A stretch of 64,000 bases of DNA from Macrocystis pyrifera (Eukaryota > Sar > Phaeophyceae > Laminariales > Laminariaceae), in contig JASSKH010000031.1 of assembly GCA_031763025.1 (NCBI GenBank), forward strand, positions 1,364,001 through 1,428,000. Reading direction: 5' to 3'. Both the position numbers and the translations under genes were made by a program. Below are positions 1-62,439 of this stretch, one piece after another. Within the stretch, counting starts at the first letter, position 1. Every line of letters starts with the position of its first letter. Below the pieces are notes generated by a model. It did not search any database. It saw only the letters and a program-made list of their open reading frames with translations, and had not been told where the DNA came from.

Positions 1-52
1 GTTCTCCTGGTCCATCATGTTCCGAGACACAGCCATCAGCCTTGTGGCAGTC
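1..52 (-). repeat. Degenerate copy of DHAD exon 8 3' edge in intron 8
   Basis: Read on the minus strand this resembles codons [17 protein letters not shown] (shared blocks TGCCACAAGGC and CGGAACATG). The donor GT has become GA and the frame is broken, so it is not an exon. Confidence 0.75.
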
Positions 53-225
53 CTTTACGCCACTCACTCACTCTGACCGGAAACCTAACGATCGTTTCGA
101 CATTCAGTTTAGCACCAAAACGGTCTCTACATTTCTGACCAGATTTGGTACACACGACATATTTTATACCAGGCACCTAAAGACCGCCCACAACCCCCCC
201 CCCCCCTCCCCTCTCTCTGCTTCAC

Positions 226-59500: not shown

Positions 59501-62439
59501 AAGAGGTAAATATATAGGTTTTTATGTACACCATAGGTCCTATTAACTATGGACCCCCGTAATAATAATTCCCTGAATTTCAGCGCAGGGAGGTGCAAAT
59601 GTTGGGATCTCACAACCATTGAACCTACAGCATTAGCGCGCACGTGTGACACAACACTTCTCCGCCACCCCCCATCAAGGAATTCGAAGCTTTCATCCGT
59701 TGCATGCCCGCCTCGAAAGCGGTCCATAGTAGGATACAGCTCACTTCTCGTGCGACTCGCCCAACACCCCACGGCGCTTCGCGCTAGGCGCAAGCGAGAT
59801 GTCTGCCTATTTTGTGGAAACCCCCCGTGCTTCATCCCGGCATTACAGGGATGCGAGGGTCCATGGTTATACGACACGGGAATGCACGACATGAGTACCC
59901 CCCCCCCCCCCCCCCCCCCCCCCCAAATCCCACCACATACGACTACGGCCATGAATGACATGGTACACCCCCCCCCCAACGGCCATGCATGATAATGAGT
60001 ACACCCCCCCCCTGTCCGCTCCCCCAACCCCACCAGCTCAAACCTGCGTCATATAGGCCTGCGGAACAGCATCGTACTCCCAAGCATCACTCCCCCCGCC
60101 CTCCTCCTCTTCCCACGAAGCCAGTCCAGGTACAGTGTTAAGCCTCGCAGTGACGGGGGCAAAGCACACGTCGTACACGAGACACCGGGCGTCTGTTGCG
60201 AACCCGCGCAGCTCTCTCCATGGCGATGGCAGAACATCTCCCTGAGGGTGGGGGGGGGGGGGCGGGGGTGGTGGTGGTGGTGGTAAGGGGGGGTGGGTGC
60301 GGGGGGGGGGTGAGGGGGCTTGGTTGGGGGTGGGGGTGGGGTGGTGGTGATCGGTAGGATTGGGGTAGGGTGGGAGGTGGGAAGAGGACGGGGGGTTGTA
60401 CTCACAATATCATGCACGGCCGTAGTCGTATGACCATAATCCCTCGCATCCCTACAATGTCGGAATGGAGCCCTCCGGGTTTTCACCGACCAGGCAGACA
60501 TTGCTTGCGCCAAGCGCGAAGCGCCGTGAGGTGTTGGGCGAGTCGCATGGAGGGTGAGCTGCATGCATTCTACTAAGAACCGCTTTTGAGGTGGATTTTC
60601 TTGCTTATGGATGTCAGCGTCAATGATTTGATTTAGTTTCTGGTGTGGCCACTTCCAGAGACAGCAATGGGGGGAGGGTTAGTGGTATGAGTGGGGGGTG
60701 GGTGGGTGGGTGGGTGGGTGAAATCATGATGACGTTGATGGATACGACAGCTATGGAATGGCCGAGCAAACAAAGACGGTAGAGGTGGAGGCAAGGGGGT
60801 ATTGTGTCAAGTGACTTGCAGACTCCGAGATCGACACCGATACGAATCCGACAACGACCCCCCAAAATGGACGCCAAAACCGAATCAAACTCCGAAACCG
60901 AATCCGATCCCGAAATCGAACTCGGAATCGAAGCTCGAACCAATCTCGAATCTGTAAACTAAAAACGACCACCGAAAAACGGCACCAAAACTGAATCCTA
61001 ATCCGTATGTGAATCATGATCCGACACGAAAAACGAATCTCAAACTCAAACCCAAACTGACCGTCATCACAGAAAAAAGGTCGGAGAATATCATTCAGGC
61101 TAGCCCTGGCCTCCGCTCTCGCAGTCTTCTGCTCTTCAAGTCAACCAACCAAATCTAAACTTAAAACCAAAACTGAACACCAAAAATCGGCATCAAAACC
61201 GAGTCTTACTGCTACACTGGTAGTTATCTAAATTCGAAATCCGAATCAAAAACAAAAAAACGAAAGTATTGCCGAAATAATCCGGAACCCAAAACTCAAA
61301 CCAAACCAAACCCACGGGCATCGCAGAAGGGGGGTCTGAGATCGTCAACAGGTTCACCCGGACATCCGCCTTTGCCGTCCGGTCCCCCTGAAGTCAACCA
61401 TATCCAAAAAAAAATCGGAATAAAATTCGAATCTAAACCTGAGCACCAAAATCGAGACAAAAAACCGAGATTCCTAACCCTAATCCCAAACGAAATCCGA
61501 ATCAAGAGTTGAAACCCAAACTGATACCGAAATATAATCCGAAACCTGAACCCAAACCCACCGGCATCGCAGAAGAAGGGTCGGAGACAGGCTGGCCCTG
61601 AATTCCGCCCAAGCAGTCTTACCCTCCGCAATCCAATCAAATAAAAAATCAAAACCAAAACCAAAACGGACCACCAAAATCAACATCAAGACCGAGATCC
61701 CTGAAATATAATCCAAAACTAAATCCGGATAAAAAACTACAACTGAAACTACAGTACCACTGAAACAATAATCCGAGACCCAAAATCCACATCAAATACA
61801 CCGGCATTGCAGATGAGGGGTCTGGGATCACCATCAGGCAGGCCCTGACCTCTGCCCTCGCATTCTTATCCTCCTCAAGTCAAACAACCAAAATAGAGCT
61901 GAAAACAAAAAACGTGACCACCAAAATCGACAAAACCAAGTGCCCAAATCTCAAAATCCATCAAGGACATCCGAATCCAACACTGAAACGGCAATCTACG
62001 CCGAACAAAATCCGAAGCCCCAAGAACGTGCAAACTCAAAAATCCACGCCAAACCCACCGGCATCGCAGAAGAGGGATCTGGGATCGCCATCAGACACGC
62101 CCGGACCTCCGCCCTCGCTGTCCGATCCTCCTCAAGCCTAACCCTAGCCAGCGCCGACCTCAGAACCGCCACCCTTCCTTCCTCGGTCACGCTGTAGTCT
62201 TCTGCCCCAGCTCCTGAACCCCCCCCCGGCATCACGCCAACACTTCCGACAGCAACTCCTCCTCCTCCTCCTCTCCCTCCGGAGGCGGCGGCGGCGGGAT
62301 TTGCGGTGGATTTTTTTGCGGTGGAGTTCGCTGAAACGCCTCCGGAGGAGGCGTTGTTGGGGAGGGCCAGAGAGGAGAACCGAGGAGGGGATGGCGCGAA
62401 AAGCGCCTCCCTCTGTCGCAGGAGAGCCGACGCCACCCC
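56400..62439 (-). CDS. COG7: Conserved oligomeric Golgi complex subunit 7 (C-terminal half, 5 exons)
   Basis: COG7 is a lobe-B subunit of the COG tether for retrograde intra-Golgi vesicles. Five phase-consistent exons give about 387 codons. Family landmarks are: LRGFATDARCLVYDV (a LAMDSQHLVFDALF-like block), AYMTQVGEHLLSLLQNLEPF (IGxYLMTLPxxLEPF block), and LSERGVKHLEADLKYLSNVF then HALDL (the C-terminal TKQLATDIDYLxNVMDALGL block). Human COG7 is 770 residues, so the N-terminal half lies beyond 64000. The last 10-20 residues are not resolved: the phase-1 donor at 56400 needs a further exon, otherwise reading on gives 19 more residues and a TAA near 56341. Introns are 1817, 1114, 1379 and 568 nt. 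Confidence 0.9.
56600..56757. repeat. G-rich tract including a poly(G) of about 30
   Basis: Lies in the intron just upstream of the COG7 C-terminal exon; G runs at 56684-56694 and 56717-56746. On the transcribed strand it is a C-rich tract next to the acceptor. Confidence 0.9.
56855..57075 (+). repeat. AAAAACACAAA-type A-rich tract
   Basis: Low-complexity CAAAAACAAAAACAC sequence in the COG7 intron, T-rich on the gene's strand. Confidence 0.85.
57152..57431 (-). CDS. COG7: COG7 exon with Asp/Gly-rich insertion
   Basis: Completes the split Arg codon, then ECGAALDLHESELILLETLS. A lineage-specific insertion of ~50 residues (HDDDHNDNGDGDDD, poly-Gly/Arg) follows, then AAKFCTAWLLCVGSGTVGHL LAK, matching the family's helix before the C-terminal block. 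Acceptor TATGCAG, donor AAG|GTGTGT. Confidence 0.85.
57574..57796 (+). repeat. (AAT)n microsatellite, about 220 bp
   Basis: Nearly perfect AAT trinucleotide repeat starting after CAACAACAACAAT. Its poly-Asn reading frame is not a gene. Confidence 0.97.
57900..58155. mobile_element. MITE family B copy 2
   Basis: GAGGCGTTCTACGATAGAGG at the left and CTCTGTAGTAGAAGGCGTC at the right. Aligns along its whole length with 29752-30000. Confidence 0.8.
58205..58515. repeat. GATC-rich dispersed repeat F, copy 2
   Basis: Collinear with 11155-11400: CTAGATCTTTGAGGGCAGA, TTGCCGGGTGGGAGCTGA, GGGTTGGAGCTGTAC, GGTCAGGATCTA. It sits next to MITE A copy 9 in a COG7 intron. Confidence 0.78.
58548..58659. mobile_element. 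MITE family A copy 9
   Basis: Left TIR carries a small insertion (GACCATGGTCGTAAGTAGG); right TIR ends CCCCCGCAATA. Confidence 0.88.
58811..58929 (-). CDS. COG7: COG7 exon (39 codons, phase 2 end)
   Basis: VGEHLLSLLQNLEPFANSDA then FQDAVEPTRDLHLLTETAW plus AG. Acceptor TCGGGCAG, donor GAG|GTGAGA. The VGEHLL-x-LEPF motif is diagnostic for COG7. Confidence 0.92.
58950..59115. repeat. Dispersed repeat E, two adjacent copies
   Basis: ACAAATCTTTGGAAGTAGAG TTGGATGC and AGACCAACCACTTGAAATTA GTGTG-type blocks, each followed by a TTTTG.AGCAAT box. Located in the COG7 intron upstream of the exon at 58811. Confidence 0.6.
59456..59564. mobile_element. MITE family A copy 10
   Basis: TATTACGGGGGTCCATAGTT ... 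AACTATGGACCCCCGTAATA: compensating changes keep the two TIRs complementary. Confidence 0.9.
59680..60012 (+). mobile_element. Poly(C)-tailed repeat C2, copy with nested tails
   Basis: Body with CATCCCGGCATTACAGGGAT, then GACATGAGTA and 27 C (59898-59924). Two more short GGCCATG...poly(C) ends follow (59945-59980 and 59981-60012), as if tails were added or inserted serially. Confidence 0.72.
60044..60241 (-). CDS. COG7: COG7 exon (66 codons)
   Basis: GDVLPSPWRELRGFATDARC, LVYDVCFAPVTARLNTVPGL, then an acidic EEEEGGGSD loop and DAVPQAYMTQ. Acceptor CACCCTCAG, donor CAG|GTTTGA. A C-rich repeat tail lies a few bases beyond the donor. Confidence 0.9.
60245..60395 (+). repeat. GGTGGTGGTGG / poly(G) low complexity
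   Basis: Adjoins the acceptor of the COG7 exon at 60241 and the C2 copy to its right. Confidence 0.85.
60396..60675 (-). mobile_element. Poly(C)-tailed repeat C2, minus-strand copy
   Basis: GTACTCACAATATCATGCAC, then the C2 body through GCCGTGAGGTGTTGGGCGAG to TGTGGCCACTTCCAGAGACA GCAATGG, one of the longest copies. Confidence 0.75.
60676..61054. other. COG7 intron: GGGTG run and CCGAAATCGAA filler
   Basis: A GGGTGGGTGGGTGG tract (60695-60722), then loosely repeated ACCGAATCCGAAATCGAA words that continue between the exon-edge copies. Confidence 0.7.
61055..61145 (-). repeat. COG7 exon donor-edge copy 4 (most diverged)
   Basis: Minus strand: GCGAGAGCGGAGGCCAGGGC ... TGTGATGACG|GTCAGTTTG. 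GT kept, frame broken. Confidence 0.8.
61312..61396 (-). repeat. COG7 exon donor-edge copy 3
   Basis: Minus strand keeps an open frame DRTAKADVRVNLLTISDPPS AMP|GTGGGTTTG against the real DRTARAEVRACLMAIPDPSS AMP|GTGGGTTTG. Confidence 0.88.
61558..61638 (-). repeat. COG7 exon donor-edge copy 2
   Basis: Minus strand EGKTAWAEFRASLS, then a small deletion shifts frame; the donor CCG|GTGGGTTTG is identical to the real one. Confidence 0.85.
61797..61892 (-). repeat. COG7 exon donor-edge copy 1
   Basis: Minus strand EEDKNARAEVRACLMVIPDP SSAMP|GTGTAT: intact frame, three residue differences over 25, GT kept. Confidence 0.9.
62059..62439 (-). CDS. COG7: COG7 exon (127 codons; first in window)
   Basis: Starts after TTTTGTCAG and reads GVASALLRQREALFAPSPPR. 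A Ser/Ala/Gly-rich insertion is followed by EDYSVTEEGRVAVLRSALAR and ends IPDPSSAMP|GTGGGT. Its 3' ~80 bp plus donor are repeated four times in the next intron. Confidence 0.8.

Follow-up and report, generated by a model that had tools for sequence, protein, structure and literature searches.

Genes and copied exon edges

The window analysed here, a stretch of 64,000 nucleotides of the brown alga Macrocystis pyrifera (GenBank assembly GCA_031763025.1, contig JASSKH010000031.1, positions 1,364,001 to 1,428,000), is one part of a genome of 537 Mb in 223 contigs and holds sequence of three genes, DHAD, a JmjC gene and a putative COG7 gene, at which the edges of exons recur as degenerate copies in the adjacent introns. 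All genes studied lie on the minus strand and coordinates are given as window positions. DHAD is identified exon by exon through matches to TIGR00110, and its exons were set from these matches together with splice sites; the start of exon 1 (10400) is arbitrary, and exon 11 may be concealed in the stretch that separates exons 10 and 12. The C-terminal exon of the JmjC gene matches PF02373 (E 9e-4, 20.1 bits, below the cut-off of 24) and the PHD assignment comes from a match to PF00628. The COG7 identity is taken from four weak collinear matches to PF10191 (E 0.015 to 0.84), none of them over the exon with copies, which lie at 56434-56583, at 60041-60235 and to the right of the window (C213:1420434-1447612) and which suggest a gene length of about 27 kb.

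Copies were sought with edge probes of 70 nt (60 exon and 10 intron). Each DHAD edge was compared with its adjacent intron, with 100 dinucleotide shuffles of that intron and with the other introns of the same gene; the copies of exon 1, exon 5 and COG7 were tested against 200 shuffles, with other stretches of the window as controls. For seven of 24 DHAD edges the adjacent intron holds a copy that scores above every shuffle and every other intron, namely the donors of exons 1, 8, 9, 10 and 14 and the acceptors of exons 5 and 13, and the copied edges of exons 9, 10, 13 and 14 lie to the left of the window, outside the view of the initial annotation. Inside the window 6/22 edges (13 + 9 tested) exceed all of 100 shuffles, the sixth belonging to an exon-like segment (29311-29190), and the remaining 16, exon 2 (8596-8469) included, gave no copy above all shuffles. 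The initial annotation had reported copies at five boundaries in all three genes, two at exon 1, three at exon 5 and one at exon 8 of DHAD, one at the JmjC exon with the HxD codons and four at COG7, and each of these exceeds its shuffles. It had also described the copies as including the splice site, which does not hold for the JmjC copy, as this starts inside the exon.

The scores in Table 1 are to be set against a shuffle maximum of 35 and a maximum of 43.5 over 326 other window stretches for exon 1, against 40 and 35 for exon 5 and 47 and 55.5 for COG7; for exon 8 the shuffle maximum is 31 and the other introns reach 24.5. The first exon 1 copy (10061-10030) falls under the maximum of the other stretches and is only modestly above its shuffles; it was accepted because it stands in line with the other copy and shares neighbouring intron sequence as well. 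The copy of the HxD exon, which scores 40 against a maximum of 30 in 100 shuffles and lies under the threshold of 42 used in the counts outside the window, is also modest relative to its controls and has no junction. Distances between an edge and its copies in the neighbouring intron range from 146 to 1521 bp. The intron upstream of exon 13 holds at least two copies, and the COG7 array has a period of about 250 bp, with the exon homology of all four copies ending at one upstream point. All three exon 5 copies diverge from the exon directly after GCCGA (CCCGA in the second copy, counted away from the exon), beyond which T-rich filler follows.

The intron side of the copies

Homology on the intron side of the junction was tested under strict gap costs against 200 shuffles for 16 copies at nine edges. 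It exceeds all shuffles in seven copies at five edges, comprising the first copy of exon 1, the first copy of exon 5 (narrowly, 84.5 against a shuffle best of 82), the copy of exon 9 (107 against 39), the first copy of exon 13 (71 against 46.5) and copies 1 to 3 of COG7 (88, 82.5 and 73 against 68, 60 and 54). In the third copy of exon 5 and the copies of exons 14 and 8 the score is reached by 2, 3 and 5 of the 200 shuffles respectively, which is suggestive. The tandem duplication across the junction proposed in the initial annotation is thus demonstrated for part of the set, and is an extrapolation for the rest, which do not exceed all shuffles.

At exon 9 divergence is similar in the exon-derived part and in the intron-derived part, with 46/52 and 116/138 aligned letters agreeing (gaps not counted), and the same is true of exon 13 (73/89 and 115/137, counted likewise). 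Equal divergence of the two sides had been considered for four DHAD cases (exons 9, 10, 13 and 14) and was dropped because gap-tolerant alignments give similar identities for chance matches; under stricter scoring with shuffles only exon 9 and the first exon 13 copy are secure among those four.

For the COG7 and exon 5 arrays a single crossing followed by amplification inside the intron is suggested, and is favoured over repeated copying from the exon because the copies leave the exon at a common point. The repeated crossing of the junction envisaged in the initial annotation is therefore not upheld for these two arrays. Non-exon bases common to the copies might be changes in the exon, and only the common breakpoint is relied on.

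Splice sites within the copies

The aligned splice dinucleotide is kept in about 10/15 copies, the COG7 position having been set by eye: in one of two at exon 1, one of three at exon 5, none of one at exons 8 and 14, one of one at exons 9 and 10, two of two at exon 13 and four of four at COG7. The calls for exon 14 and for the third exon 5 copy hinge on the alignment. Plain decay at about 80% identity predicts, by our own arithmetic, about 9.6/15 dinucleotides kept. The decoy splice sites of the initial annotation thus appear as sequence in about two thirds of the copies, where they would be candidates only, the remaining third having lost the dinucleotide.

Local duplication in the genome

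Local duplication in direct orientation is frequent in this genome. In a random background of 20 loci of 10 kb (976 windows of 70 bp, with a copy sought within 1.5 kb; one locus, L028, holds 2,460 N) 14.8% of windows have a direct copy, 4.0% a reverse-complement copy and 1.0% a match in another locus. The introns of DHAD, counted on both sides, have direct copies for 77/480 windows and reverse-complement copies for 2.3%. The random loci were also tried as a source of exons, with a finder that took its codon scores from the exons of DHAD and CCT and its splice matrices from DHAD; it called 13 exons in the 200 kb and 10 when the sequence was reversed, and these loci were kept as background only.

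Outside the window copies were counted at a score threshold of 42, edges and introns being compared for same-side edges only, and Fisher p values are rough because windows overlap. The control genes comprise 23 of 30 CCT matches, with 1/46 edges copied against 97/1346 intron windows, and JmjC exons elsewhere (7/7 matches, of which L003 and L005 lie near each other on one contig), with 0/14 against 144/995. Taken together they give 1/60 edges against 241/2341 intron windows (10.3%), edges being lower (p 0.03), and 0/1200 in non-adjacent introns. Control edges are the ends of Pfam matches, with splice sites unverified and flanks often of 700-900 bases, and given this the rate of 1/60 may be too low. 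An edge rate below the intron rate once DHAD is set aside would fit selection against decoy sites, in what is a small sample. The DHAD edge rate differs from that of the CCT and JmjC genes (p 0.001).

When DHAD left of the window is pooled with these genes, copies are found for 5/72 edges, 4 of them in DHAD, for 308/2975 intron windows, for 23/2975 in reverse complement and for 5/1440 in non-adjacent introns. Edges are thus copied in their own introns far more often than in non-adjacent ones (p 4e-5), an enrichment that the initial annotation had anticipated but that comes from DHAD in four of five cases. They are not copied more often than intron interiors (p 0.43), and the generality across the genome that the annotation had implied is not supported; a genome-wide rule of edge copying was likewise rejected on the CCT and JmjC samples. 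Edges seem to be caught gene by gene in common local direct duplication, and on present evidence the pattern centres on DHAD and its neighbours and is not a genome-wide habit.

The single CCT edge with a copy is the donor of a TCP1 exon (L045, C207:4985969-4986142), where AGGGCGTCGAGCAG together with the following GTG recurs about 60 bp downstream with a score of 50. A weaker CCT donor (L043, exon C204:1132290-1132409) has a match scoring 36, under the threshold, about 560 bp downstream.

Origin of the copies

The copies are probably the remains of old local duplications, mostly of tandem units that crossed the exon-intron junction, in a genome in which local direct duplication is common. It is proposed that a tandem unit spanning the junction was duplicated, in COG7 and exon 5 by one crossing with later expansion within the intron. 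The outermost unit would stay as the intact exon and the new copy would land in the intron, where it would decay neutrally, duplications within coding sequence presumably being removed by selection. Simple filler would turn over faster, which could account both for COG7 and for the copies that have no intron-side homology. The copies would accordingly be fossils left by the growth of introns, and would act as decoy splice sites, if at all, by accident.

Several observations weigh against this proposal. The COG7 copies are more alike in their exon-derived parts (0.63-0.78) than in their intron parts (0.43-0.65), which is unexpected from the decay of whole units, and a faster turnover of simple filler would therefore be needed. 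The intron side is not above chance in 6/16 copies, the score being reached, in 200 shuffles each, by 11 for the second exon 1 copy, 34 for exon 10, 31 for COG7 copy 4, 48 for the second exon 5 copy, 13 for the second exon 13 copy and 170 for the HxD exon.

The copying of DHAD edges more often than its introns counts in the same direction, with 7/28 edges against 7.4% of intron windows (p 0.004, in a comparison that includes the part that drew attention and in which one of the 28 edges, the arbitrary exon 1 start, is not a real edge) and with 4/12 against 67/634 (10.6%, p 0.03) in the part left of the window alone. These figures speak for a reading in which junctions are special, so that introns grow preferentially by duplication of their edges and edges are copied more than interiors throughout the genome. 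Such a preference is unlikely in view of the CCT and other JmjC genes, where the difference has the opposite direction, and of the pooled counts outside the window.

About equally improbable is the copying of the exon edge alone into the intron, by short template-switch or patch copies and with no tandem unit. The copies of exons 8, 10 and 14 and of the JmjC exon, where no intron-side homology exceeds all shuffles, would agree with this, and exon 10 is a further point against junction-crossing units, its copy retaining 60/71 identity in the exon part at a distance of 1.5 kb with no intron side, in the interval that may hide exon 11. The intron side was nevertheless copied at five of the nine edges, multi-copy arrays stand in line at COG7 and at exons 5, 1 and 13, and turnover of simple intron filler would give the same appearance.

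Retention of the copies for a function in splicing control, as decoy sites or poison segments, is very unlikely. None of the four COG7 copies has lost GT, and they are more alike in their exon-derived parts than in filler; GTGAGT survives in the exon 9 copy, as does AG in both copies of exon 13; yet the dinucleotide is lost in about a third of copies, small indels break the frame relative to the exon, and at exons 9 and 13 the two sides have diverged to a similar extent. An assembly artefact, with wrongly placed or haplotypic sequence joined into introns, is hardly credible, since nothing was found in its favour and the copies, with an identity of about 69 to 94% over the edge, are degenerate and follow one another in line within several introns, whereas haplotypes joined in this way would be expected to be near-identical.

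A further reading, put forward tentatively and rather doubtful, is that introns here gain most of their length through local tandem duplication and that, in a subset of genes including DHAD (7/24 edges), duplication repeatedly crosses junctions and leaves the spliceosome to choose the true site among ageing near-copies. If so, near-copies of different date would form a natural dated series for the study of splice-site choice. Should the pattern extend beyond DHAD and its neighbours, the arrays would show how far a duplicated splice site must decay before it is passed over and to what extent introns are enlarged by tandem duplication. Confined to a few genes, it would illustrate the survival of junction-crossing duplications and give reason for caution with gene finders, which may annotate such copies as exons.

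Relation to known systems

Intronic minisatellites and degenerate tandem arrays fill introns with degenerate head-to-tail units and resemble the copies described here in this respect, the difference being that the first unit here overlaps a coding exon and its splice site. In the literature on tandem duplication across exon-intron boundaries, on intron gain and length, on splice-site, partial exon and internal gene duplication, on minisatellites and on brown-algal introns, surveyed by the titles and beginnings of abstracts listed, no report of the recurrent multi-copy form inside existing introns was found, which is not proof of its absence. Within that survey the nearest precedent is an intron of the potato RdRp gene, where one tandem duplication crosses the intron-exon boundary (PMC4974935). 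As described there, the duplicated unit runs from the 3' part of the intron into the 5' part of the exon that follows and takes the splice signals with it, as do units here; in potato a single event gave rise to a new intron, whereas the present copies remain within an existing intron and are old, degenerate, often several and recurring along one gene. Tandem duplications of coding sequence are reported from Drosophila (PMC2891723). In the Rogers model an intron is born through tandem duplication of an exon segment bearing AGGT (PMC4974935, PMC2891723). As outlined in these sources the model likewise has exon sequence, splice motifs included, duplicated in tandem; the unit here, in contrast, holds an existing junction, and no intron is demonstrated to be new.

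Features of the window and neighbouring repeats

Table 1. Exons, exon-like segment and copies of their edges in the window
Feature	Position	Strand	Remarks
Copy of DHAD exon 8 donor edge, GT lost	1..54, continuing beyond the left edge of the window	-	score 57.5
DHAD exon 8	226..333	-	donor after 226; TIGR00110 match
DHAD exon 5	3984..4144	-	acceptor before 4144; TIGR00110 match
First copy of exon 5 acceptor edge, AG kept	4467..4516	-	score 68
Second copy of exon 5 acceptor edge, AG lost	4670..4720	-	score 57
Third copy of exon 5 acceptor edge, AG lost at aligned position (AG one base on)	4774..4823	-	score 51
Second copy of exon 1 donor edge, GT kept	9913..9951	-	score 48
First copy of exon 1 donor edge, GT lost	10030..10061	-	score 36; intron side copied too
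DHAD exon 1 (3' part; 5' end arbitrary)	10187..10400	-	donor after 10187
Exon-like segment, acceptor edge with upstream copy	29190..29311	-	no Pfam match
Copy of 5' edge of exon-like segment	29456..29522	-	score 54; shuffle maximum 31
JmjC-gene exon with HxD codons (THMD; protein ...GGSTTHMD)	36737..36977	-	coding potential; HxD read by eye
Copy of first part of HxD exon, without splice site	37090..37115	-	23/26 identical; score 40
COG7 donor-edge copy 4, GT kept	61054..61168	-	donor after 61062; score 70.5; intron side not above shuffles
COG7 donor-edge copy 3, GT kept	61308..61406	-	donor after 61316; score 114
COG7 donor-edge copy 2, GT kept	61554..61634	-	donor after 61562; score 77.5
COG7 donor-edge copy 1, GT kept	61794..61922	-	donor after 61802; score 121.5
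COG7-gene exon (3' part)	62059..62201	-	donor after 62059; coding potential and collinear COG7 matches

A degenerate array of units of about 620 bp, roughly 63-70% identical, occupies 30002-35092, between the JmjC exon at 36.7 kb and the exon-like segment at 29.3 kb. A dispersed element of about 100-120 bp resembles a miniature inverted-repeat transposable element, with ends, read by eye, that look like inverted repeats (GGGGACC..AGTAAATAGGACC / GGTCCTATTTACTATGGTCCCC); it is placed at 445-546, 2856-2963, 8157-8276, 15379-15488, 17830-17941, 39968-40208, 52754-52868, 58536-58660 and 59444-59565, the sameness of all these places being an assumption. A second dispersed repeat, grouped by eye, occurs in both orientations and often beside poly-C or poly-G tracts (6612-6817, 8860-8993, 9682-9816, 10433-10733, 53954-54040, 59686-59898, 60372-60673, 62698-62969 and 63286-63580). 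Across the genome, 614 candidates for FNIP repeats, of which 150 were scored, yield at least 120 matches at E<=0.001; for Saccharina japonica a 537-Mb assembly is reported, with a mean intron length of 1,057 bp and 121 putative FNIP proteins (PMC4421812). Runs of poly-G lie at 16039-16105 (67 bases, pure) and 55951-56025 (75 bases, 97%).

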